A stretch of 38,032 nt of DNA from positions 1 through 38,032 of the forward strand of contig JACRGQ010000049.1 of the NCBI GenBank assembly GCA_016217735.1. The letters run 5' to 3'. The position numbers and the translations under genes are program-made. This document shows, piece after piece, positions 107-36,166 of the stretch. Under the pieces are notes generated by a model. The model saw nothing but the letters and a program-made list of their open reading frames with translations, did no database searches and had not been told where the DNA came from. Position 1 is the stretch's first letter, and each line of letters begins with the position of its first letter. Source of the DNA: Nitrospinota bacterium. GTDB lineage: Bacteria; Nitrospinota_A; UBA7883; JACRGQ01.

Positions 107-1855
107 TTGAATAATAATCCACATCTCCTGTATGGCATTCAGGGGCTTGCGGCCCGTTTCAACTTTCCGCTGGTTAATTCGCATACCGGCATTGTTATCG
201 GCAGCGGCAGGTTGTGCCTGATTGATCTGAAGCGCGGCGGCGGTGGTTTTTATCTTAACGTTTTGGCTGACGTGCCGCTTGAAGGGCAGAACCCGTTTTC
301 CCCCGATGTCTCGCGGCTGCTGACCCGCCTCGCCCGGGAAAACAGCCTGCATGGGCGGACCGCCGCCATTCTCGCCGCTGGCCGCGGCTTGCGGGTGCGG
401 ATTCTGGAGATGCCCCGCATGGAACAGGGCGAACTGGTGGCATCACTTCGTTTTACCGAGGCCGAGGCGTTACCGTATCCGATGGAGACCGCGGCGCTGG
501 ACGGCTGCATTCTGCCGGGTGGCGCGGAAGGCCGGATGCCGGTGCTGATGGCGGCGCTGGAGTGCGCCGAGGCGGACCGCCACCATCAGATGCTCTCCCG
601 TTCGCCGTTTCGGCCAATCGCCCTCACGGTGGTTCCGGCGGCGCTCGATGCGCTGCTGGAGCACTCCCGTATTATCGATACGAGCGTCCCGGTTTCTTTC
701 ATCAGTATATCGGGGGCGCATATCGGGGTTTATATTTTTGAAGGAGGCGGCATACGGTTTACCCGCGATATCGGTTTTGGCGGCGATGGTTTTACCGATG
801 CGCTGACGGGGGCGTATGAGGCGGAAGGGGGGGGAATCGCCGTTTCCCGCGAAGAGGCGGAAACGCTTGTCGCGTTCTTCGGGATACCACGCGGTGATAG
901 TCTCGGCGCACACGGACCCAGGGGGATTTCGGGAGAAACGGTTTTAGCCCGTTTGCAGCCGGCGCTGGATAAGATGGTGACGGAGTTGGGCCGGTCGCTC
1001 GACTATTACCGCAATGAATACCAGCATTCCTCCGTGCCGCCGGCCTACCTCATCGGCTCCGCCGTCCGGATAAAGAACCTTGCCGAATATCTTACCGATG
1101 CGCTTGGCTGCCGGTTCTCGGTCTACAACCCGTTCGGCGATTTTATCGCGGCGGAGGGGCCGGGCCTGGCGGCGGCGCGGGATAACGGAGCCGCTTGCGC
1201 CGTGGCGGTGGGGGTGGCGCTGGATCAGGGGCGGCGGATCAATCTCCTGCCGGAAAAAAAGCGATGGTCGCCGCGGAATTGGCTGCGTGCGCGGCTTCCG
1301 GCGGCGGCGGCGGCGTGTTATTGCCTGCTGGTATTGGGTGCCGGCTTGGCGGGTACCGCATACCGTAAGAGCCTGGATGCGCAAATCGCCGAGGTGGAGG
1401 GGAAAATTGCCGTTCTCAAGCGGGCGCATGACGCCGGCGCCGTCATCGAAGCGAAAATGGCCGACATCCGCGGGGAGATCGGGGCAATTGACGCCCGCAA
1501 GGCGGCATACCCGGAACTGGAAGGGCGCGGCATCGGCTGGAAGGAACTGTATGGGGAAGTGGGGAGGCTGATGCCGGACGATATGGCGCTGGATCGCCTC
1601 ATTTTCCGCTTTGGCAACACGAAGGAGTATGCGGCCGATGGCGTCATGTATGGCAGGCAAGCGTTGTTTGAAGGGCGCGTCCGGGGCGGGGCGGGCGGGC
1701 AAGTGAAAACCCTGGAGCAGTTTTTGGAAAAAATGCGGGACTCCGCGTTTTTTACCCACGCCACACTCATAAGCTCCCGCGAGGTGGCGGCGGATGGCGG
1801 CAACGCCTATCTGAAGTTCACGCTGGCGGCGGACATCCGGCGGGAACAGCTATGA
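107..1855 (+). CDS. pilM: PilM-PilN fusion (GspL/MshI-like pilus assembly protein)
   Basis: This is an inner-membrane component of a type IV pilus or MSHA-like alignment complex. Residues 28-370 form an actin-like PilM domain: a GIVIGSGR phosphate-binding-like segment near residues 28-35 and an AEALPYP segment typical of PilM/GspL. Residues 378-382 read INLLP, the short motif by which PilN normally docks onto PilM. It is followed by one membrane helix (about 398-418), a coiled coil and a PilN-like periplasmic domain. PilM and PilN, usually separate, are therefore joined in one 582-residue chain, as in GspL. The start is TTG; no other start codon precedes the conserved glycine segment and no clear Shine-Dalgarno site is visible. 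The stop overlaps the next gene as ATGA. Family is clear; pilus versus secretion role is not. Confidence 0.8.
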   Translation: MNNNPHLLYGIQGLAARFNFPLVNSHTGIVIGSGRLCLIDLKRGGGGFYLNVLADVPLEGQNPFSPDVSRLLTRLARENSLHGRTAAILAAGRGLRVRILEMPRMEQGELVASLRFTEAEALPYPMETAALDGCILPGGAEGRMPVLMAALECAEADRHHQMLSRSPFRPIALTVVPAALDALLEHSRIIDTSVPVSFISISGAHIGVYIFEGGGIRFTRDIGFGGDGFTDALTGAYEAEGGGIAVSREEAETLVAFFGIPRGDSLGAHGPRGISGETVLARLQPALDKMVTELGRSLDYYRNEYQHSSVPPAYLIGSAVRIKNLAEYLTDALGCRFSVYNPFGDFIAAEGPGLAAARDNGAACAVAVGVALDQGRRINLLPEKKRWSPRNWLRARLPAAAAACYCLLVLGAGLAGTAYRKSLDAQIAEVEGKIAVLKRAHDAGAVIEAKMADIRGEIGAIDARKAAYPELEGRGIGWKELYGEVGRLMPDDMALDRLIFRFGNTKEYAADGVMYGRQALFEGRVRGGAGGQVKTLEQFLEKMRDSAFFTHATLISSREVAADGGNAYLKFTLAADIRREQL

Positions 1856-2571
1856 AAGATTCCCTGCTCCATTATTGGAAACGGTTTTCGCGGCGTGAAA
1901 AATTCCTCTGCGCCGCCGCGGCGGGCGTTTTGCTGCTGTATGCCAGCTATGCGCTCGTGCTGGAAAACTCCGTGCGGGATGCACTGAATAAGGATGCCCG
2001 TCTCGCGCGGCTCAACGCCGAATACCAGAGCATACGGGCCGGCAGCCGGCGGCTTGAAGAGCTTAAGGGGAGCTTGGCCGGCCTCGGTTTGGAACTGGAG
2101 AAAAAGCGGGAGGAGGGGCGGCTGCTTGCCGAAGGCTTACAATCACGCCGCCCCGCTGAAACCTTGTTGCACGAGCTGCGTCAAGCGGCCGGCGCAATCC
2201 CCCTGCAACTGGTGGGGATGGACATAAAGACCGGGGTGATTTCCAAAAGCAGGGAATTCGCCGTGGAACGCGCAACGGGGGCCGCGCCGGGGGAGCCTCT
2301 CCATGTCGGCGCAATGCGGACCGTCAAGGTGGATTACACGGTAAGCAAGATTGTCCTCTCCTATCGATCCACCTACCATGGCGCCGTTAACTATTTTCTG
2401 AAAGTAATGGATTTACCCTATGCCATTTCGGTGAATACCGTGGAGATGGAGCGGAGCAATATGGCCGGAATAGCCGTTGGCGGCCCGAAACGGCATATCG
2501 CCGGGGGCGGCGTTTCGGAAGGGGAATTGCCGCTGAATACCAAATTGGGGATTGAGATTTTCTACCGGTAA
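1852..2571 (+). CDS. pilO: PilO-like pilus assembly protein
   Basis: This bitopic inner-membrane protein has a short cytoplasmic N-terminus rich in Lys and Arg and one membrane helix at about residues 18-37. A coiled coil (about 40-105) and a C-terminal ferredoxin-like periplasmic domain follow, the layout of PilO/MshJ/GspM. The segment around YHGAVNYFLKVMDLP matches the place where PilO proteins carry their helix for dimer formation with PilN. It overlaps the PilM-PilN gene by four bases and ends three bases before the PilP-like gene, so it is translated as part of the same unit. Sequence conservation in this family is low; the call rests on topology, size (239 residues) and position. Confidence 0.7.
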   Translation: MKDSLLHYWKRFSRREKFLCAAAAGVLLLYASYALVLENSVRDALNKDARLARLNAEYQSIRAGSRRLEELKGSLAGLGLELEKKREEGRLLAEGLQSRRPAETLLHELRQAAGAIPLQLVGMDIKTGVISKSREFAVERATGAAPGEPLHVGAMRTVKVDYTVSKIVLSYRSTYHGAVNYFLKVMDLPYAISVNTVEMERSNMAGIAVGGPKRHIAGGGVSEGELPLNTKLGIEIFYR

Positions 2572-2574
2572 GTT

Positions 2575-2907
2575 ATGAAAAAGGCAATCTTAGGACTTTT
2601 ATTACTGTCGTTGCTGGCGGATGCCGTGTTTGGTACGGAACTTGAATCATCCAAGTCACGCAACCCCTTCGATTTCGGCGGGGGAAGCGGCGACAAAGGG
2701 ACTTTTGGGAACAAGCCGGTATCACGTTTGGGTATGGTCGTGGACGCGGGCGGCAAGCATGTCGCCTACATCGATGGTATCCCCCATAAGGTGGGGGATG
2801 TGGTTGATGGAGCGCGGATTATGGACATTACACTGAAATATGTGGTGCTGGTTTCCCCGCAAAAGACTTGGAGAATGTATGTTGAACCGCTCAAGGAGAA
2901 GGAATAG
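2575..2907 (+). CDS. pilP: PilP/MshK-like periplasmic linker protein
   Basis: A 110-residue exported protein with a signal peptide (about residues 1-20) and a Pro/Gly-rich linker carrying the sequence NPF. It ends in a small beta domain of the PilP/GspC homology-region type: a GMVVDAGGKHVAYIDG strand pair, then a VGDVVDGARI loop and the terminal strands. In type IV pili PilP connects the PilN/PilO dimer to the secretin, which fits its place between the PilO-like gene and the secretin gene. The last 29 bases overlap the secretin gene. There is no lipobox Cys, unlike many PilP proteins; it could equally be called MshK. Confidence 0.65.
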   Translation: MKKAILGLLLLSLLADAVFGTELESSKSRNPFDFGGGSGDKGTFGNKPVSRLGMVVDAGGKHVAYIDGIPHKVGDVVDGARIMDITLKYVVLVSPQKTWRMYVEPLKEKE

Positions 2908-4612
2908 CCCGGCGTATCACGCGCTGCTATTGTCGTTCTTCTTTGCGGTTTCGTCTTGCGCTACCCCTCCGGCCAAAAAAATTGTAGTTGAACCAGCAAA
3001 AAATGACGTAACTTTTCTTCCGTCACAGCCGCAAACGGCAGCCGCTCCCTCAATTCCGCCGGCGGGCGCCATACAAAGCTCCCATGGGGATGATTCGGCC
3101 AAGCCGTACCTGTTGCAACTGCGTGATGAAGAGCGCGGCGGCTCGGAAAACCGCCAGCGGCGGGAAAACCTCTTTTCGTTTCATTTCAAGGAAACCAGCC
3201 TTGAGTCGGTTGTTAACATGTTGAGCGACCGGGGGCGCAACTTTCGCTATGTGATACACCCCGATGTCGGATCGCGTAAAGTATTGGGGCTTTACCTGGA
3301 GGACGTTACGTGGCGCGAGGCGCTTGCCACCGTCGCCCGGCTGCACAATTTGATTATCACCGAGGAGCACAACCTGGTGGTGGTCAATACCTACGAGAAT
3401 TACATGGCGGCGCAAGAACAGGACGTTAAGCGCGTCCGCTTATCGCAGGATCGCGCTGAAATGGAGCGTTCCATCCTGGCGGCGTCGCTTAAGTCCAAAC
3501 AACTCCAGGCGGACGACCGGCGCACATTCCGTTCGTTTAAACTGAAATACGCCGAACCGAACGAGGCGAAAGCCTATCTGGACCGGATTTTCAGCGGCCC
3601 CGGTGAAATGCCGTCATCCGATGCTTCCGCCGAAAAGGGCGCCGCGGCCCCGGCGCAGTCAAGCTTCCGCATATTGTTCAGCACATTCAGCAAAGCGTCG
3701 ATTTTGACCGCGTACGGCACTCCAGCGGATATTGAGGATGTGGCGCGGCGCATCGAGGATATTGATGTTCCGCAGCAGCAGATATTCATTGAATCCCGCA
3801 TTGTCGAAGTTATGCGCAGCCACAGCCGCTCGCTTGGCGTTCAGTGGGGCGGGCTCGCGGCGCGCACCACTGGCAGCGTATTTCCCGCCACTGTCGGCCT
3901 TGCCGGCAGCGCGCAGGTGGGAAGCACGGCGCTGGTGCCCAACGGGCTTGCCGCCACGCCGGGGGGCGCGCTCTCAAACGGTTATGCGATGGGAACATCG
4001 AACGGCATGGTGGATCTGCCGGCCACTGATCCCTCCAATTCCGGCGCGTTACCCGCCGCGGTAAGCATCGCGTTGAGTGACGTCGCCGGCACTTCGTCCC
4101 TCAATCTGCGCTTCAGCGCGCTGGAGCGCGACGGCAAGGGAAAAACTTTGAGCAACCCGAAAATCGTTACCATCAACGGCGTGCGGGCAAAGATCGCCAG
4201 TGGCCGTGAAATCCCGTATCAGCAGTCGGCCGGCGGCTCGTCGGGGGCGACCACCGTGGCATTTAGAAACGCCGTCATCTCGCTGGAAGTCACCCCGTTT
4301 GTTACGCCAGACAACAGAATTTCGCTCAAAATCGCCGCCCATAAGGACGACGCTGATTTTACGAACCCCGTTCAAAACGTTCCCTCGATACTCACCCGTT
4401 CGGTGGAGACCAGCGTTGTGGTGACGGATGGCGGCACCGCCGTGTTGGGAGGCGTATTCGAGAATCTGCAGACAGGCACCGAACGCGGGGTGCCGTTCCT
4501 TTCAAAAATACCGGTCATTGGCTGGCTTTTCAAGGGAAGCGAGGATCTCGATAACGAGAAGGAGCTGCTTATTTTCATTACGCCGCGCATTGTAAGGGGC
4601 AATTTCACATGA
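2879..4612 (+). CDS. pilQ: PilQ/MshL-type secretin lipoprotein
   Basis: This is the outer-membrane secretin channel for pilus or pseudopilus passage. The ATG at 2879 is chosen because GGAG lies five bases upstream and the product then begins with a signal peptide ending in a lipobox (VSSC, lipidated Cys27). An STN/N0-N1 region spans about residues 98-172, followed by a secretin N-domain (about 213-290). The C-terminal half is the beta-barrel domain, with the hallmark segments TLSNPKIVTINGVRA and GVPFLSKIPVIGWLF and the ending ELLIFITPRIV. At 577 residues it resembles MshL more than long PilQ proteins. The lipid anchor may let it reach the outer membrane without a pilotin. Its stop overlaps the next small ORF as ATGA. 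Confidence 0.9.
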   Translation: MLNRSRRRNSPAYHALLLSFFFAVSSCATPPAKKIVVEPAKNDVTFLPSQPQTAAAPSIPPAGAIQSSHGDDSAKPYLLQLRDEERGGSENRQRRENLFSFHFKETSLESVVNMLSDRGRNFRYVIHPDVGSRKVLGLYLEDVTWREALATVARLHNLIITEEHNLVVVNTYENYMAAQEQDVKRVRLSQDRAEMERSILAASLKSKQLQADDRRTFRSFKLKYAEPNEAKAYLDRIFSGPGEMPSSDASAEKGAAAPAQSSFRILFSTFSKASILTAYGTPADIEDVARRIEDIDVPQQQIFIESRIVEVMRSHSRSLGVQWGGLAARTTGSVFPATVGLAGSAQVGSTALVPNGLAATPGGALSNGYAMGTSNGMVDLPATDPSNSGALPAAVSIALSDVAGTSSLNLRFSALERDGKGKTLSNPKIVTINGVRAKIASGREIPYQQSAGGSSGATTVAFRNAVISLEVTPFVTPDNRISLKIAAHKDDADFTNPVQNVPSILTRSVETSVVVTDGGTAVLGGVFENLQTGTERGVPFLSKIPVIGWLFKGSEDLDNEKELLIFITPRIVRGNFT

Positions 4613-4776
4613 TCGGACAAAGTAACATTAACTTGATGGTGCGTTTGGTTGTGGGGACGGCGTTGCTGTTGCTGATCCTCTGGGGGAGCGGCTCCGGCAC
4701 CGCCGACTCAAAAGAGCCGCAAAAAAATGCCGTACGCCCCATACACCGGACCGCCGCAAATACCTCCCCGCGATGA
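4609..4776 (+). CDS. Small exported peptide, 55 aa, signal peptide like its neighbour's
   Basis: This short frame starts with an ATG overlapping the secretin stop (ATGA at 4609-4612). It ends in a TGA overlapping the next start (ATGA at 4773-4776), so it is stitched into the operon at both ends. Its N-terminus has a charged start, a Leu-rich core and a Gly/Ser stretch. The core MVRLVVGTALLLLILWG matches the signal peptide of the next gene at 11 of 17 positions. The remaining 30 or so residues are polar, basic and resemble nothing I know. It is either a genuine small exported peptide or the remnant of a partial duplication kept for translational coupling. Confidence 0.55.
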   Translation: MIGQSNINLMVRLVVGTALLLLILWGSGSGTADSKEPQKNAVRPIHRTAANTSPR

Positions 4777-6140
4777 AACAGGATACGCTTAACACCGTAA
4801 TGGTCCGTCTGATTCTCACTACGGGGCTTCTGCTGCTGTTTACCTGGGGAGCAAACGCCGCCGAACCCGGAGCAATGAAGGGCATCGGACAGATGAAAGG
4901 GTTTATCGAGGCGGGGGAAAAAAGCATTACCCTGCTCACCGTGGGGGATCGGGTAAAATTAAAGCTGAAAAACCCCGAAGCGGTGATGCCGGGGGACCGG
5001 ATGGACATTTATGAGTCGACGAAAACCGGCACGGTTGACGACCGGGGCGATGAGTTACTGGCCTGGGTCGGACGTTTGGTGATCACCGGTATTGATGGCG
5101 GGACGGTGCTGGGTTCGCTGGAATCAGCCACGCGGGAGATTTTCGCGGGCAGCCATTTGGATTACACCCTGCCGGACGAGCGGCGGCAGAGCCGTTATTT
5201 CGGCCTGATGCGGATGATGGCCGCCTCGATGGCCGATCCGGCGCGGAATTTTGTGACAGTGGCGTTCCCGGATGTGACCGATGGCGCCGGCAACGAAACC
5301 CGCCTTTCGGAAGCCGCCTATGTTCAATTGCGGGAGGCGCTTTGCGGCCAGCCGCAATTCCGTTGTGTGGAGAGGGGCGCATTGCGCGCCATGCTGGACG
5401 AATATGACGTGAAAACCGGCGCCTCCGCCGGGGGGCTGGCGCGCGGCAAGGCCGCCACGCGGTTCGATGCGGATTGGTTTGTTACCGGACGGCTTGCTTA
5501 TGTGGATGCGTTGGACGCCGCCGCGCGTGGGAATGTCCGTTCCGGCGGCCTTCTTCTCACTGTGACGGCATATGACCTGCGTAACACCGCTAAGGTCTTT
5601 GCTTCCACCTATCCCGTGGCCGCGGGAGAATACAATATCGCCAATGGCGCTCCGGATGACGTATTGGTGGCATACCGTGCCGCGCGTCACGCCTATCTTA
5701 AAATCATGGTTGATGGCGGCGCCATGCTTTCGGGCCGTAGGGTGGATAACCTTTTCATGGCGCCGCTGGACGAGTATGTGGATATGGAGTACCGCCGCCA
5801 CATCGGCGGCGGTTCGGACGGCCGGGTTGTCATGGGAAACATTGAGATTTCACTGGATGGCAAGCCGCTGCGGCGGGGAGCCGATGGGGTGTATTATGAT
5901 GACATCATCAGCGCGGGCGGCCATACGCTGCGCGTTTCGGCAGTCCCGAGCCTGATGGGGCGGGGGGAACCGCCGATTGGCAAGCGGCTGGATAAGAGCG
6001 TACAACTGATTATCGCGCCGGATGCCGCTTTTATGAGTCAAGTGGTGGTCGGCATCCTTGGCAGACAGGGGTTGATAGCGGTCGACACGCGTCCCATGGG
6101 AGAGCATCCATTTAAGGGAGTTTTGGCTGATGGCAGATAA
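4773..6140 (+). CDS. Exported protein with FlgO/CsgG-like domain
   Basis: This 455-residue exported protein has a signal peptide ending near residue 28 (GANAA). A beta-rich segment (about 45-130) is followed by a region recalling FlgO/CsgG/TolB-type domains: FVTVAFPDV, a polar residue-rich helix, then CVERGALRAMLDEYD and DADWFVTGRLAYVD. In FlgO, CsgG and LpoB such domains sit at the outer membrane as assembly or stabilising factors. The C-terminal part (about 345-455) is a beta sandwich around GNIEISLDGKPL resembling PEGA-type repeats. No lipobox is seen. Directly downstream of a secretin, it may be an accessory factor for that machine; that role is inference. It overlaps the next gene by 11 bases. 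Confidence 0.6.
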   Translation: MKQDTLNTVMVRLILTTGLLLLFTWGANAAEPGAMKGIGQMKGFIEAGEKSITLLTVGDRVKLKLKNPEAVMPGDRMDIYESTKTGTVDDRGDELLAWVGRLVITGIDGGTVLGSLESATREIFAGSHLDYTLPDERRQSRYFGLMRMMAASMADPARNFVTVAFPDVTDGAGNETRLSEAAYVQLREALCGQPQFRCVERGALRAMLDEYDVKTGASAGGLARGKAATRFDADWFVTGRLAYVDALDAAARGNVRSGGLLLTVTAYDLRNTAKVFASTYPVAAGEYNIANGAPDDVLVAYRAARHAYLKIMVDGGAMLSGRRVDNLFMAPLDEYVDMEYRRHIGGGSDGRVVMGNIEISLDGKPLRRGADGVYYDDIISAGGHTLRVSAVPSLMGRGEPPIGKRLDKSVQLIIAPDAAFMSQVVVGILGRQGLIAVDTRPMGEHPFKGVLADGR

Positions 6141-6882
6141 AAACGACGCGCCGCAGCGCCCGGCGGCGGAAGCCGCGCGGAGCGCCGGAGAGGGGTCGCC
6201 ATTTTCCATGCCGTTGGAAAAAGGGATGGATATTTTGGCGGAGCCGGCCGCAAAGAAAACGGCGGGGGAAGAAGGGCCAAAACATGAAGTAAAGCGCGCG
6301 CCGCAAGAGGCCGCGCCGCCCGCCAAAACGGCGCACACGGCGGACGTGCGGTGCCACGGCCCCCGTCTCTGGAGGCTGTTGCTGGCGATGTTCCTCTTTC
6401 CCTTTTTCTTCAATCTCGGTTCGGAGCTTTATTTGCTGGCTCGCACCGCCATTATGGCGCACATGGGCGGCTTGCAGACCGCCGCGCCGCCGCCTGCCCA
6501 GCCATCACCGGGCAAGAGCGATGCCGACAAGATGATAGACAGCCTCGCGGTGGTGATCGCCAATCAGGAAAAATTGTTGCGCGATGCCGGTCAATCGGAT
6601 GCCGGCCGGGTGGTAATCATACATCCCGATTATGCCGGAACCTTTTCGTATGACGCCGAAAAAGGCAAGGTAAAAGAGCTGGCCGGCATTGATTTGGACG
6701 ACCCCTTGGCGGGTTCAGACAAGTTCGGCAAGATAAAATCCGCCGAGGTCTTAAGCGCCGTCATCGGATCATTCGACCGGATATTACTCAACGCGGCTCA
6801 GAACAATGTTTCCGAATTCAGGGTAAAAAATACCCTGGAAGCAAAAAAACAGGCGCTCAGACGGTTGCAAGAACTCCGCTAA
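6130..6882 (+). CDS. Uncharacterised single-pass membrane protein
   Basis: I do not recognise this 250-residue protein. It has a long Ala/Pro/Lys-rich cytoplasmic N-terminus (about 1-78), a Phe-rich membrane segment (about 80-108), a short proline linker and a mixed alpha/beta domain (about 125-250) carrying VVIIHPDYAGTF and ending in a Lys-rich helix. The topology recalls GspB/TonB-like energy or peptidoglycan-linking proteins of secretin systems, but I see no OmpA-type or PDZ signature. It starts inside the end of the FlgO-like gene and is the last gene of the pilus operon. Confidence 0.55.
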   Translation: MADKNDAPQRPAAEAARSAGEGSPFSMPLEKGMDILAEPAAKKTAGEEGPKHEVKRAPQEAAPPAKTAHTADVRCHGPRLWRLLLAMFLFPFFFNLGSELYLLARTAIMAHMGGLQTAAPPPAQPSPGKSDADKMIDSLAVVIANQEKLLRDAGQSDAGRVVIIHPDYAGTFSYDAEKGKVKELAGIDLDDPLAGSDKFGKIKSAEVLSAVIGSFDRILLNAAQNNVSEFRVKNTLEAKKQALRRLQELR

Positions 6883-7018: not shown

Positions 7019-7225
7019 ATGAACACTTTCTCTAAAGCTCTCGTTGCCTTGATGGTTGTCTCGATGGTTGTTACCAGCGGCACCGCGTTCGCCGGCGAAA
7101 CGAAACACAAGAAGCACGAAGCCAAGGCTGAAGAAAAGGCCGCGGCTCCGAAGGAAGAAAAGAAGGCTGAAGAAGCGAAGCCCGCAGCGGCCCCGGCAGC
7201 GGCCCCCGCAGCAAAAGGTAAATAA
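7019..7225 (+). CDS. Small secreted Lys/Ala/Glu/Pro-rich protein (Asr-like composition)
   Basis: This 68-residue precursor has a clear signal peptide cleaved after AFA at about residue 25. The mature part of about 43 residues is built almost only of Lys, Ala, Glu and Pro, with two His near its start (KHKKHEAK) and alternating Ala/Pro at its end. Its composition and size recall the acid-shock protein Asr of enteric bacteria, a periplasmic intrinsically disordered protein, but homology cannot be claimed. The ATG at 7019 is preferred; a TTG two codons upstream is closer to the AGGAGG at 7003-7008. A strong terminator directly follows, so the gene is monocistronic and probably well expressed. It shares a promoter motif with the sigma-factor operon. 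Confidence 0.75.
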   Translation: MNTFSKALVALMVVSMVVTSGTAFAGETKHKKHEAKAEEKAAAPKEEKKAEEAKPAAAPAAAPAAKGK

Positions 7226-30961: not shown

Positions 30962-31882
30962 TCAGAGGTTGAGCGTGGCGTCGGCGAGCGTTCCCCGCAC
31001 CGGGAAATAGTATTTGCCGTCCGGCTTGCGGTGCTTGCCGTACAGCGCTTCCAGCGCCCCGGAAAGCGAACCCCGCGGCGCGAAGACCACCGCGCCTTCC
31101 AGCGGGGAGTTGCCGATATCGTCTTTCAGGGCCGCGTTCGCGCGCAGTTCCATGTTCCCCATGTTGGTGGCGATGCCGCACTCTTTAGTGACCAGCCGTT
31201 TGCCGCCGGCCGTTATCACGCAGCGGGCCTCCTTCGGCGTGAAGCCGGCGAGAAAGGCCGCCCACTGTCCGCCGCGTTTCACCGAAAGGCCGTTTAACCG
31301 GAAATCGGCCTTTCCCTCCAGCGCCGACGGCGTCATCGGGTGGAAGGTGAAGGCCGCGCCGCCGTCCAGCGTGGCGGCTATGGGCATCGGATTGCCGGCA
31401 ACTTTCAGCGCCGCGCGGTCTATGGGAAAGTTGTCGGCCACGGCATGCAGTTTGACATCGGCGGAGAAGAGGGAGGGGGCGATGTCGAGGTGGAGCCGTC
31501 CCTCGCCGGAGGAAGCCTTGAGATGGAATGATGGGTGGAGAAACAGGAATTTCCAAACGGCGGCGCTGGCGCGCAGTTCGTCCACTTCGATGGTGGATGC
31601 GCTGCCCCAGTGCATCAGCCGCACATTCGCCATTGTCACCGCGAACGGGAAGGAAAGCTCCATCTGGCCGATGGTCAACTCCATCCCTTGCCGGCGCGCG
31701 GCCTGCGTCAATTTGTCGCGCACCGTTTCGGCGTCGAGGTTCAGCACGACCATCGCGGCGATCAGGTAGAGTCCGATGACCGATCCGGCGATGGCGATAA
31801 GCGTTTTTTTCATCCGGGGGCGTGCCGCCACAAAGCGCCACGCGCCCCTTGCGGCGCGGCGGGCGGCGGTATCGGCGGCCAT
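30962..31882 (-). CDS. gspN: Type II secretion system protein N
   Basis: A 306-residue bitopic protein with a short basic N-terminus, one membrane helix (about 28-48) and a long beta-rich periplasmic domain of the GspN/AsmA-like kind. Typical segments are LTIGQMELSFPFAV, IEVDELRASA and a C-terminal GTLADATLNL. GspN is an optional T2SS component of poorly known role. ATG at 31882 shares one base with the gspM stop (TGATG). Family sequence conservation is low, but position at the end of the gsp operon supports the call. Confidence 0.8.
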   Translation of the reverse strand: MAADTAARRAARGAWRFVAARPRMKKTLIAIAGSVIGLYLIAAMVVLNLDAETVRDKLTQAARRQGMELTIGQMELSFPFAVTMANVRLMHWGSASTIEVDELRASAAVWKFLFLHPSFHLKASSGEGRLHLDIAPSLFSADVKLHAVADNFPIDRAALKVAGNPMPIAATLDGGAAFTFHPMTPSALEGKADFRLNGLSVKRGGQWAAFLAGFTPKEARCVITAGGKRLVTKECGIATNMGNMELRANAALKDDIGNSPLEGAVVFAPRGSLSGALEALYGKHRKPDGKYYFPVRGTLADATLNL

Positions 31883-32391
31883 CACAACTCTTTGGCGAAG
31901 GTGATTTCGGCGTTGACGTTGCTCCGGTTTTCGTAATTGACCGTGATGCGTCCCCGATGCACGCCGATTCCCGCGCTGCTGTCAAAAACCCCTTGCAGGA
32001 AATCGGTCAGCCGCGGGTAGGGTATTTTTTCGATGGTGGCGGTTACTTCGTCCTGTCGGCCGGTTTTTGGGTTTACGGACGGGGTTAGTTTTGTTATGAA
32101 TTTGTTTGCGCCGAGGCGCGCGGCGATATTTTGGATATCGTCGGCCACCGGGCCGCCGGCGGGGGCGTCCTGTTTCAGCGCCGGGGGAATTTGCGCGGAA
32201 AGCGCTATATAGCGGTCCGCCAATTCGCTTGTCTTGGTCAAATCCTGCCGCGCCGCGCGGATTTTGCGGTCGAGCAGCGCCGATGTTTCCTGAAGCGGCA
32301 TGATGACGCCGCCGATGAGCACCCAGAGGCCGAGAAGGGAGGCGATGCCGATCAATACGGCGGTCCGTTTCGTCCGCGCGGGAATGATCAT
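31882..32391 (-). CDS. gspM: Type II secretion system protein M
   Basis: A 169-residue inner-membrane protein with a short cytoplasmic start, a single membrane helix (about 11-31), a coiled coil (about 35-65) and a ferredoxin-like periplasmic domain (about 80-169). In the T2SS assembly platform GspM binds GspL and GspC. Size and topology fit; it overlaps gspL by four bases and gspN by one. Confidence 0.82.
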   Translation of the reverse strand: MIIPARTKRTAVLIGIASLLGLWVLIGGVIMPLQETSALLDRKIRAARQDLTKTSELADRYIALSAQIPPALKQDAPAGGPVADDIQNIAARLGANKFITKLTPSVNPKTGRQDEVTATIEKIPYPRLTDFLQGVFDSSAGIGVHRGRITVNYENRSNVNAEITFAKEL

Positions 32392-33728
32392 AGCGGCATC
32401 CTCAGCTTGAAGGTTACCTTCCGCCCGTCGGGGGCGACTTTACTTTCCACCAACTCCGCCCCCTTGAACGGCGTGGTGATGGAGAAGAGCTCTTTGGCGC
32501 GCGTGACCGATTCAAGGCGGTCGGTGCGGCCCGTCACCGTGACGCTCTCCTCTTCGTAAAGGATATCGTCCATTTCAAGCACAAGCCCCTCAGGGAGCGC
32601 TTCGCTCATCCGTTTCAGCGTCCAGATGAGGTCGTTTCGGCCGCCGCCGTCCAGTCCGGCGCGTCTCATTTTGCCTTCCAGCTTCGCCAGCCGCTGTTCA
32701 AGCTGGAAGACAGGTTTCACCGCCTTCGTGCCGGGGAGGGCGGCGGCGAAGACCGTTTTGGCCTGATTATTGATCATCGCCAGCGTCCGCTCCTTCATGT
32801 AGTTGCGGAAGACGAGGAAGCCGAGCAGCAGAACCGCCGCGGCGGCGCCGGTGGCGGCGGCGATGCGCCAGTCGTGCGCAAATTTCATTGTGCGCCGCGT
32901 GTCCCCCGCGAAGGTGAGTTCATCGCCGCCGGCGGTTCCCAGCGCCGCCAGGCCAATGGGGATCATAAGGCGTTCCGGCGCGTCGCCGTCGATCACCGAT
33001 CCGATCTGCCGCTTCCAGAAATCCTGTTCCGGCGCGTATCCCGGCAGCCCAGGCCGTGTGCCGCCGATGAAGCGTTTTTCCGGCTCGGCGGGAAGCGCGG
33101 CGGCGAAGCGGTGTATCTCTTTTTCGTCCGGTTCGGCGGCGTGGAAGTCGATATGGCCGTTCGTGGCGGCGGCGCAGAGGTGCAGCATCCCTTCATCGGC
33201 GGAGGCGATGAGCGCCGATGCCGGTTCCGCGCGCAATGCCGGGAGGATGACGCCGCGGTAGAAGTAGAGGAGGGCGGTGGTATCGGGGGCGATGGCCCGC
33301 GCATCGATGCCGGCCTTTTGCAGCAATGCGCGGTAGTGCGCCAGCCGCTCTTTGCGGATGGCGCAGGCAAGCACGGATGATTGCTGTCCCTCCGTTTTCA
33401 TGATGACGAAGGATGTCGCCAATTCTTCCGCCGCGAACGGGAGCGCCGCTTCCAGCTCGAAGCCGAGCGCCGCCGCGATCTGGCCCCGCCCCTTAAAAGG
33501 GAAGGTGATCTGGCGGAATGAAAACTCCGCCATCGGCAGCCCGACGGTCCACTCGGCGGCGGTATCGGCGAAGCGGATGGCGCACTCCTTGAGCGCGGCG
33601 GCCAGCGCTTCGTTGCCGGCGTAATCGGCGGCAAATGCGCCGGCGACGGCCATTTTTTTGCCGCCGGTTTGCAGGTGAACGGCATTCACCCGCCCGGCTG
33701 AAATCCACAACCCGATATATCCGGCCAT
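32388..33728 (-). CDS. gspL: Type II secretion system protein L
   Basis: A 446-residue bitopic protein. The cytoplasmic actin-like part (about 1-275) includes AALGFELEAALPFAAEELA and APDTTALLYFYRGV; in the assembled machine this binds the ATPase GspE. A membrane helix lies at about 290-310, and a ferredoxin-like periplasmic domain binds GspM. Unlike the PilM-PilN fusion at the start of the window it has no INLLP motif. It overlaps gspK by one base and gspM by four. Confidence 0.85.
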   Translation of the reverse strand: MAGYIGLWISAGRVNAVHLQTGGKKMAVAGAFAADYAGNEALAAALKECAIRFADTAAEWTVGLPMAEFSFRQITFPFKGRGQIAAALGFELEAALPFAAEELATSFVIMKTEGQQSSVLACAIRKERLAHYRALLQKAGIDARAIAPDTTALLYFYRGVILPALRAEPASALIASADEGMLHLCAAATNGHIDFHAAEPDEKEIHRFAAALPAEPEKRFIGGTRPGLPGYAPEQDFWKRQIGSVIDGDAPERLMIPIGLAALGTAGGDELTFAGDTRRTMKFAHDWRIAAATGAAAAVLLLGFLVFRNYMKERTLAMINNQAKTVFAAALPGTKAVKPVFQLEQRLAKLEGKMRRAGLDGGGRNDLIWTLKRMSEALPEGLVLEMDDILYEEESVTVTGRTDRLESVTRAKELFSITTPFKGAELVESKVAPDGRKVTFKLRMPL

Positions 33729-34651
33729 CAGTCCACCTTAAAATAGAGCAGTTCCGCATTTTCGGCGGTGCGGTTGTTAAAAATCGCGTGCGCCATCCGC
33801 CGCGTGTTGTTAAAGGTGATGCTCGCCTCAAGCGAGAAGGCGGCGGCGCGCACATCGATGAGGTTGGATATCTCCGGGTACAGCGCGTCGAAACCCGCGA
33901 GGTTTTTTATCTCCACTTTGTTTTTAAACGGCAGGTCCTCGCGCGCTTTCAACACGTCATCGGCCATCGAGCCGGTGACGTCATCGTGAAGCGCCATTAA
34001 AACTTCCCGCGGCGCGGTGTTGATGTTCACCACGCCGCCGGCGATGGTGACGAATTTGCGCAACCGCGCAAAGACATCGGGGGTGACGCCGCGCACCATC
34101 TGGAGCTCCTCCACCGTATCGAAGCGCGCGTTTTTGCAGCGGTAGGGGTGCGGCAGCGACTGGTAATACGGATTTTCGGCGGGGCCTTCCTCGTTGGCGT
34201 CTATCCAGTCGCGCGCGTAGTCGGCGATGTCTTCATCCATCTCCAGTTTGCGCAGCAGGCGGCGGAAGAAGGCGATGTACTTGTCGTCCGGGTATCCCCC
34301 CGGCGTGATGAGGCTGTTGAGGTTGATCTTGGACGATTCGTCGACGATGGTGGCGAACATGAAGGTGTCTTCCAGCGGGATGGCGATGGCCGGTTGCGCC
34401 CAGTATTCCTTGAGGGTATCGATAAGGAGGCCGTTTTTTTGATCCCGCCGGAAGTCTTCGGTAATCAGGGCGCGGGCCGCTTCCTTGGCGCTGGCGAGGG
34501 CGTAGAGTCCTTTGGCGCCATCGCGGAAATTGGCGGTGAGGCTTCGATCCACCCACGTCTCGTACAGGAACTCCGTCACGGTTATGGTGAGTATCACCAC
34601 CACGAGGAGCGTGACGATGAGGGCGGTTCCCCGCTGATTGTTCGCGATCAT
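33728..34651 (-). CDS. gspK: Type II secretion minor pseudopilin K
   Basis: A 307-residue minor pseudopilin that caps the pseudopilus tip with GspI and GspJ. The N-terminus has a short leader ending in Gly (NQRG) followed by the hydrophobic helix TALIVTLLVVVILTI. As usual for GspK the Glu at position 5 of the mature chain is absent. A large helical globular domain follows (DEDIADYARDWIDANEEG and VEELQMVRGVTPDVFARL). ATG at 34651 overlaps the gspJ stop as ATGA; the longer frame has no prepilin leader at its start. Confidence 0.9.
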   Translation of the reverse strand: MIANNQRGTALIVTLLVVVILTITVTEFLYETWVDRSLTANFRDGAKGLYALASAKEAARALITEDFRRDQKNGLLIDTLKEYWAQPAIAIPLEDTFMFATIVDESSKINLNSLITPGGYPDDKYIAFFRRLLRKLEMDEDIADYARDWIDANEEGPAENPYYQSLPHPYRCKNARFDTVEELQMVRGVTPDVFARLRKFVTIAGGVVNINTAPREVLMALHDDVTGSMADDVLKAREDLPFKNKVEIKNLAGFDALYPEISNLIDVRAAAFSLEASITFNNTRRMAHAIFNNRTAENAELLYFKVD

Positions 34652-35262
34652 GCCTGCGGCCTCACGATGGCGGAGTAGAAGTAGCTTTTGCCATCGGCGG
34701 CGAGGCGCAGCTCGATGGATACCGCCTCGGGCAGCGCATGGCTTTGCGCCGTGTCCCACGCTTCTTCCCACTTGTCGCCGTTTTTGTATTTGATGGAAAG
34801 CTCTTCCGCCCGCGCGGTCAGTTCCAGCGATTCGCCTCCCTGATCCACCGGCGTTTCAATGACGTCCGATTCGCGGCGCATGAGCGCTTCCACGCCGGAC
34901 TTGCCGGCGCGGAAGTAATAGCTGATCTCGGTTACGCCGGCGCGGGGGCGGGGGGTGATATAGGTCTGGCTGAATGCGGTGAAGTGTATCTCGTCGCGCG
35001 ATTTGCCGTTCACCGTGAAATGGCGCCCCACCAGCGCGCCGCGGCCGCTGATGGGCAGCAAGGTGGCGCAGGCGAGTTCAGCGGTGATTTTTTGGATGAA
35101 GAAGCGTCCCGTATGGTCTATCCCCATCTTTTTTTGCGCATCCTTGCTTGCCGACAGCGTGGAGGCGAGCACGCCGAAAATGAATGAAAAGATGATGCCG
35201 AAGATAAGCACCGCCACCAGCATTTCCACCAGCGTAAAGCCGCCGTTCTTCACGCGCTTCAT
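34648..35262 (-). CDS. gspJ: Type II secretion minor pseudopilin J
   Basis: A 204-residue minor pseudopilin with a prepilin leader MKRVKNGG, cleaved before FTLVEMLVAVLIFGI. The beta-rich C-terminal domain includes ITPRPRAGVTEISYYFRAG and VSIELRLAADGKSYFYS. ATG at 35262 puts the leader at the true N-terminus and overlaps gspI as ATGA. It forms the tip complex with GspI and GspK. Confidence 0.92.
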   Translation of the reverse strand: MKRVKNGGFTLVEMLVAVLIFGIIFSFIFGVLASTLSASKDAQKKMGIDHTGRFFIQKITAELACATLLPISGRGALVGRHFTVNGKSRDEIHFTAFSQTYITPRPRAGVTEISYYFRAGKSGVEALMRRESDVIETPVDQGGESLELTARAEELSIKYKNGDKWEEAWDTAQSHALPEAVSIELRLAADGKSYFYSAIVRPQA

Positions 35263-35612
35263 CGCTTCACCACGTACCGGTCGATTGAAAACGCCTCTTT
35301 GCCGTCGTGCCGCACACGGATGCGGATGGCGCGCACGTCCGGGAACGGCGTTTGGGTTATTGTCGACCTGTAATCGAAGCGGGGATAGCGCTGGTCGGTC
35401 CGCCACGTTCCGTCATCCCCTTTCTCGGGGAATCCGCCGAAATCAATGGAGGCCATCTTCTCGCTCCCCAGCATGACCGCGTCCGTGATCCCGCCATTTT
35501 CCGCCGCCGTGACGATGGTCTTGTTGAAGACCGAGAGCAGCAGCACTAGCGTGATGCCGATGATCGCCAGGCTCACGACGATTTCCACCAGGGTAAATCC
35601 TCCGTCCTTCAT
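35259..35612 (-). CDS. gspI: Type II secretion minor pseudopilin I
   Basis: A 117-residue minor pseudopilin whose very short leader MKDGG precedes FTLVEIVVSLAIIGITLVLL, with Glu at mature position 5. The globular part has the GspI feel (GSEKMASIDFGGFPEKG, IRIRVRHDGKEAF). It overlaps gspH and gspJ by four bases on each side. Tip complex partner of GspJ and GspK. Confidence 0.92.
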   Translation of the reverse strand: MKDGGFTLVEIVVSLAIIGITLVLLLSVFNKTIVTAAENGGITDAVMLGSEKMASIDFGGFPEKGDDGTWRTDQRYPRFDYRSTITQTPFPDVRAIRIRVRHDGKEAFSIDRYVVKR

Positions 35613-36166
35613 GCCGCGCCGGCCTCGTAATCGATGCCCACTTTGCCCGGCTCCACCCGCACGCCACCGGTCAGCGGGTCGACGATGAGGGATACCAGCC
35701 GTCCGCTTTCATCGCCTAGGACGATCACCGTTTTTTCGGCGAAGCCTTCCGGCATCAGGTGGAGGTAGGCCATGTTGCCGCCGAACGCGCCGCTGAAAAC
35801 GGTGACGAAGCTCTTCACCTCCAGCCCCGCGCCCAGCGATCCGGAAGTGAAGAGGGGGAACGACGTTTTTTCAAACTCTCCCTTGCTGTTCATCGTTGCG
35901 GGATAGTACTTCCCCTTGTCCATATCAACGTACAGCCGCACGACTTTGCGGCTGGAAACGGCTTCGGCATAGAGGTAGGTGATGGTGCGCCCCAGATGCC
36001 GCGCGGCGCCATTGAGCCGCAACTCGCCGATATCGGCCAGCCGGGGGAGGGTGAACGCCGTGAAAAGGCTGATGATGAACATCACCACCAGCAGTTCCAC
36101 CAGGGTGAAGCCGCCGCCCCGTTCCGGATGGCGGTTATTGGGCATTCCAGCTTTCAACGTCGGCAT
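35609..36166 (-). CDS. gspH: Type II secretion minor pseudopilin H
   Basis: A 185-residue minor pseudopilin that joins the tip complex to the main GspG fibre. The leader ends in GGG before FTLVELLVVMFIISLFTAF, with mature Glu5. A beta-sandwich domain follows (GRTITYLYAEAVSSRKVVRLYVD). Two starts are possible: the ATG at 36166 has a good AAGGG four bases upstream and overlaps gspG by 32 bases; an ATG at 36145 gives a shorter leader. Confidence 0.9.
   Translation of the reverse strand: MPTLKAGMPNNRHPERGGGFTLVELLVVMFIISLFTAFTLPRLADIGELRLNGAARHLGRTITYLYAEAVSSRKVVRLYVDMDKGKYYPATMNSKGEFEKTSFPLFTSGSLGAGLEVKSFVTVFSGAFGGNMAYLHLMPEGFAEKTVIVLGDESGRLVSLIVDPLTGGVRVEPGKVGIDYEAGAA

Follow-up and report, generated by a model that had tools for sequence, protein, structure and literature searches.

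A genus-restricted 55-codon gene, likely begun as a copy of its neighbour's signal peptide, at the secretin junction of a Nitrospinota operon

Secretin pilotins are small envelope proteins linked to the secretin, and lineage-specific small genes of bacteria, such as the orphan genes of EHEC, are short, restricted in range and without a family. TsaP is treated in two papers (PMC7545093, PMC12114550). Four-base stop/start overlaps occur in gene pairs coupled by termination and reinitiation: in one study, overlapping gene pairs of Haloferax and E. coli were coupled in 13 of 14 tests, and removal of the Shine-Dalgarno sequence cut reinitiation in four of five E. coli pairs (PMC6728339). In another, a stretch of 15 nt at the 3' end of the upstream gene was enough for two E. 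coli pairs, and complex subunits were commoner in short-distance pairs (30.4% vs 6.8%; PMC10666635).

The window examined here, meaning the whole stretch of 38,032 bases, is one entire contig (G000:C49) of a 2.5 Mb genome, and all features described lie on its forward (+) strand. The operon at its left end begins with a PilM/PilN-like fusion (107..1855; Pfam PilM_2 E 7e-16, PilN E 0.073, below cutoff) and a PilO/GspM-like gene (1852..2571; Pfam T2SSM E 8e-6, 26.5 bits against a cutoff of 27.8). A small protein without a Pfam or NCBIfam match follows (2575..2907), assigned to the PilP position by its place in the operon, and then a pilus-type secretin (2879..4612; Pfam Secretin E 4.5e-49), which scored 289.3 bits against NCBIfam TIGR02515 PilQ, above the cutoff of 284.35. 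For the secretin start, ATG 2879 (MLNR...) appears likelier than ATG 2840 because two genus orthologues begin MLNR; a lipobox-like VSSC is common to the secretin of the window and these two orthologues. The operon continues with a 55-codon ORF and then with the genes for two proteins, of 455 and 250 aa. We put at about 0.6 the probability that the small ORF is a genuine, genus-restricted microprotein gene with a signal derived from its neighbour, coupled in translation and serving as an accessory of an envelope complex. The alternatives on origin and on function are not mutually exclusive, so the odds given to them below need not sum to one.

The downstream gene (4773..6140, 455 aa) had been described in an earlier note as FlgO-like. 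It was found that a signal peptide followed by a TsaP-like domain (about residues 40-134) and an LpoB/FlgT-type domain (about 141-289) fits better, given a profile match to 3jc8 and fold alignments. No Pfam match at E 1 and no NCBIfam match at E 0.1 were recovered for this protein, and profile residues 42-116 aligned to TsaP in 3jc8 with E 0.052. An AF2 model built with five sequences (mean pLDDT 65.8, pTM 0.35) aligned with the LpoB C-terminal domain (Z 11.9, 121 aligned, 2.7 A; Foldseek E 5e-5), with PilQ-bound P. aeruginosa TsaP (Z 8.7, 107 aligned, 3.3 A; Foldseek E 4e-3) and with FlgT (Z 7.3, 120 aligned, 4.2 A; Foldseek E 1e-4). ATP-synthase-type beta domains also align to model residues 40-134 (Z 6.6-7), so the TsaP match rests on the fold together with a weak sequence match and position. 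By a weak profile match, the fold of its model and its place beside a secretin the protein appears TsaP-like, but it differs in its added LpoB/FlgT-type domain and in having no LysM match in Pfam (window protein at E 0.1; five members at E 1). A role as a secretin partner is plausible.

The small ORF itself occupies 4609..4776 and, as the earlier note had it, is ATGA-linked on both sides by four-base overlaps: the secretin stop (4610-4612) with the small-ORF ATG (4609-4611) at 4609..4612, and the small-ORF stop (4774-4776) with the downstream ATG (4773-4775) at 4773..4776. The same note had proposed a search for the ORF in close relatives together with dN/dS and would have taken a frame broken there as refutation; in both other informative genomes of the genus the frame proved unbroken. 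Among four genus genomes three are informative, G002 being uninformative since its contig begins inside the downstream gene. Intact orthologues (L002/L031 and L003/L032) occur in G001 and G003, 78 and 75% identical to the window protein, each of 55 codons and each with both ATGA overlaps, so that the secretin-side overlap is kept in three of three informative genomes. The dN/dS values of the small ORF (Nei-Gojobori) were 0.23, 0.12 and 0.24, next to 0.16-0.22 for the downstream gene and 0.12-0.15 for the secretin.

None of 1000 neutral simulations, run on an assumed star tree from the majority consensus of only three sequences, all of one genus, matched the observed low nonsynonymous share for the ORF as a whole or for residues 1-33, and four of 1000 did so for residues 34-55. 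These last residues (4708..4773) form a tail conserved in the alignment with the motif RPxHRTAAN, and the codons of HRTAAN carry silent changes. The other two frames of the ORF contain stops and have dN > dS. By computation, the frame is conserved and under purifying selection, and the small ORF evolves as a genuine protein-coding gene does. A search for it in viral contigs gave 64 pattern matches, with 0 confirmed.

We then turned to its range, and the small ORF was found in 3 of 24 phylum genomes, confined to one genus within that comparison. The remaining 21 comprise nine genomes in which secretin and downstream gene adjoin, all nine lacking the ORF, the uninformative G002, and 11 without a downstream gene at E 0.01; in some of these 11 the gene was missed perhaps because contigs stop at the secretin (G007, G009). 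With downstream starts chosen by the analyst, the two flanking genes overlap directly by 4 nt at six of the nine outgroup loci and by 1 nt (TGATG) at another; at L007 the nearest downstream start overlaps the secretin by 13 nt, and in G008, the nearest relative, the first downstream start follows the secretin after a gap of 28 nt. In the ancestor the two genes probably overlapped directly. Since all nine outgroup loci lack the ORF and six overlap, the genus probably gained a net 164 nt of coding sequence at this older junction, bounded by an ATGA on either side. That the outgroups lost the small ORF is a possible but less parsimonious account, and a scar of a lost copy in the 31-nt spacer of G008 was rejected (P 0.92, 0.08, 0.18). 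The locus is like the ATGA-overlapping termination-reinitiation pairs of PMC6728339 and PMC10666635 in its four-base stop/start overlaps, which here flank an ORF on both sides; unlike those pairs, a junction that overlaps directly at six of nine outgroup loci has been split by an extra cistron.

The possible origin of the ORF was assessed by comparison with its neighbour. A hydrophobic segment at residues 10-26 of the small protein (4636..4686) resembles the matching stretch of the downstream signal peptide (residues 10-26, 4800..4850). The agreement at 11 of 17 residues with related DNA that had been pointed out earlier was confirmed, the DNA being identical at 34 of 51 positions, and in the other two species 8 of 17 residues agree in each. 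The rest of the two proteins is unrelated, also as claimed, with 1 of 29 residues shared over residues 27-55 here and 1-2 of 29 across the three species. Composition-keeping regional shuffles scored by BLOSUM over residues 1-26 gave P 0.0003, 0.0006 and 0.0006, and P 0.0007, 0.005 and 0.016 when judged by identities alone. The small protein also matches the downstream genes of the outgroups G008 (P 0.0002-0.0004) and G010 (P 0.001-0.009).

From this examination, it is likely, not proven, that the small ORF began as a copy of its neighbour's signal peptide, because signal peptides of unrelated genes come close to the same score and, in one species, exceed it. The excess of the match over unrelated ones is moderate: the own neighbours scored 62, 53 and 54 in the three species, against 53, 60 and 53 for the best unrelated signal peptides. 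Among 161 signal-peptide-like N-termini, which come from the fetched loci and count alternative starts and orthologues, the genus neighbours ranked first for two of three species; for the third, the unrelated L020 and L021 ranked higher, their score of 60 being that of loci already selected as small-protein profile matches. Such scores would suit an independent birth from unrelated DNA or another gene, with a hydrophobic segment that converged on a common type of signal peptide, as would residues 1-9, where only 1-2 of 9 are shared with the downstream protein, and a tail without detectable source. However, a small-protein profile run on 23 class genomes returned the adjacent signal peptide as the best non-self match, among the candidates scored, in each of the three carriers (E 0.003, 0.038, 0.053). 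In both proteins, moreover, M[VI]RL comes after the same nine-residue distance from the ATGA start, and the downstream gene of the nearest outgroup matches as well. We consider independent birth rather improbable, although it is the strongest of the alternatives.

For the tail, 12 local DNA alignments with shuffles gave no convincing source in the secretin 3' end or the downstream gene; one alignment stood at 1/500 shuffles and the others at 31/500 or more. The single low value came from the tail of G003 aligned with the downstream gene in reverse complement (29 columns, A-rich) and is attributed to chance, since neither of the other species shows it. A DNA search across five genomes returned strong matches at orthologues alone. 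The next best, 27 nt in G002 (E 0.002), sits within another long open frame and was set aside, and a further match covers 20 nt in G008 (E 0.02). The partial tandem duplication envisaged in the earlier note, with the export signal retained and a short new tail added, is probable on a moderate signal-peptide match; for the tail no convincing source was found.

We next compared the translation signals at the two starts, using the canonical anti-Shine-Dalgarno sequence rather than one read from this genome. A Shine-Dalgarno-like site (GTAAGGGGC, 4592..4600) lies within the secretin 3' end 8 nt ahead of the small-ORF ATG, the Shine-Dalgarno-like GTAAGGGG falling in the last codons of the secretin, 8 nt 5' of the ORF. 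Its duplex energy is -6.5 kcal/mol in the window and -7.3 in each of the other two species. No Shine-Dalgarno-like site precedes the downstream ATG at 4773, where the three genus genomes gave 0, -2.1 and 0; the outgroup downstream starts reached -4.3 or stronger at eight of nine loci (L007, -1.0), and the other operon starts span -3.0 to -8.0. Single values are unremarkable because random positions often reach them: at 400 random window positions the median was -3.0, with 11.5% reaching -6.5 and 35% no stronger than -2.1. The contrast between the two starts recurs in three species, which share ancestry, and this recurrence suggests a takeover of the old site by the small ORF and a downstream gene that now relies on reinitiation. 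A later start of the small ORF at M10 was rejected, its site being weaker than that at 4609 (-3.2, -3.2, -2.5; 13 nt off). An internal ATG of the downstream gene is preceded by a weak site (-4.1, -0.5, -4.0).

With a site ahead of the small ORF and none at the downstream start, the downstream gene may need the small ORF for its own translation. The effect of Shine-Dalgarno removal in E. coli speaks against efficient coupling, as a partner without a site may reinitiate poorly. A leader cistron, in which the ORF would chiefly be a translational relay for the TsaP-like gene and its peptide of little function, would fit the ATGA at both sides and the fact that, in three of three species, the small-ORF start has a better Shine-Dalgarno-like site than the downstream one. 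Yet a relay needs little protein conservation, and both halves of the small protein are constrained at the amino-acid level, HRTAAN included; we therefore regard this explanation as unlikely.

The product of the small ORF was examined from its sequence and a predicted structure. An AF2 model (mean pLDDT 67.5, pTM 0.34) shows a single helix, at residues 2-26, followed by a tail without structure. An arginine immediately ahead of the hydrophobic stretch suggests that the protein is exported with its N-terminus remaining inside. By eye, the three sequences have no conserved A-x-A after this stretch, with G-T-A, D-T-A or S-G-S/T variants in its place, and the small protein may therefore stay anchored; the downstream signal peptide has A-N-A. 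The tail motif RPxHRTAAN is likely the functional part. Most likely the product is a microprotein that is exported or anchored in the membrane and is synthesised together with the secretin and its partner. Its position and probable coupling suit the earlier suggestion, as a candidate role, that it is a small secreted subunit of the secretin machine. A pilotin-like helper would likewise be small, linked to the secretin by an adjoining gene and probably exported or membrane-bound. It was noted, however, that none of the three sequences contains a cysteine, hence no lipobox and no pilotin-type lipoprotein, and that the secretin has a lipobox-like motif of its own, which would make a pilotin less needed; this identity is very improbable. 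A spurious ORF or decaying duplicate without product is least credible of all, as its shortness and the lack of a family match (Pfam, NCBIfam and PADLOC gave none, PHROGs nothing better than E 0.085) are set against conserved length, junctions and frame and the low dN/dS.

The duplication origin, the coupling, the export and the role in a complex are inferred, and under the favoured reading they could be joined as follows. The 5' part of the downstream gene, comprising start codon and signal peptide, would have been copied into the ancestral overlap of secretin and partner, where the copy acquired a new tail ending on a second ATGA, and the resulting ORF would have taken over the Shine-Dalgarno-like site in the secretin 3' end. 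Ribosomes finishing the small ORF would reinitiate at the partner, which is without a site of its own, so that secretin, microprotein and TsaP-like partner are made in step. The 55-aa microprotein, with a hydrophobic helix at its N-terminus followed by a tail of about 25 hydrophilic residues, would be moved to the periplasmic side, anchored or cleaved, and act there as a small accessory of the secretin/partner envelope complex. Tentatively, and with the odds against it, we also envisage entrenchment: a gene born from its neighbour's start and signal peptide would have taken the sole good ribosome-binding site, making the partner dependent in cis, and this dependence would have kept the newcomer until its protein gained a role at the secretin/TsaP-like interface.

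Lineage-specific small genes such as the EHEC orphans share the short length, restricted range and lack of a family with this ORF, but differ from it in its probable reuse of a neighbour's signal peptide and its fixed site in a conserved operon. The kind of gene is already known, and an instance with its junctions traced in relatives is a neat one; no direct precedent was found in the literature, in searches that were in part narrow. The locus offers a phylogenetically framed example of a bacterial small-protein gene entering an old operon, the outgroups having the junction without the ORF, the genus having it, and selection acting on the protein. If the coupling is true, newborn genes may persist since a neighbour is poorly translated without them. 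The small protein is also a candidate third component of a secretin/TsaP-like complex in uncultured Nitrospinota. The carriers are a small group of uncultured groundwater bacteria. The next operon gene after the 455-aa gene (6130..6882) encodes the 250-aa protein, which has no family match in Pfam or NCBIfam; one hydrophobic segment was seen by eye, and its place in the gene order is conserved.

It was noted that the start codon at ATG 2840 (window 2840-2882) would give the secretin gene a 68-nt overlap with the preceding gene, and position 2879 is the more likely start. The secretin of the window contains a lipobox-like VSSC motif that is common to two genus relatives, and G008, the nearest relative by identity, has LSAC at this motif. 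In G008, the gene for the downstream TsaP-like protein is preceded by a spacer (L033, approximately 5953-6000) instead of a direct overlap. This spacer carries a GGGGGG run (Shine-Dalgarno duplex energy of -9.4 kcal/mol) and differs from the remaining 8 outgroup loci.

A gene for a 68-aa Lys/Ala/Glu/Pro-rich protein was identified at 7019-7225 (+), with a strong Shine-Dalgarno-like site (-10.2 kcal/mol) and conservation at the equivalent position in the loci L067 and L069. The protein is probably exported.

We found a weak second match to residues 44-129 of the downstream protein elsewhere in the same genome (G000:C65:31118-31375, L015; E 0.003), which may represent another TsaP-type domain. 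Two secretin matches at E 1e-30 were found in 13 of the 23 class genomes (on G000:C35, G003:C13, and G001:C13, among other contigs), and in G004 (L072) both matches lie less than 10 kb apart on opposite strands. Pfam matches at window 31882-36166 (-) pointed to genes for Type II secretion, namely T2SSL, M, K, and J together with one whose product carries a prepilin methylation motif. These genes and the pilus-type secretin operon are carried on one contig.
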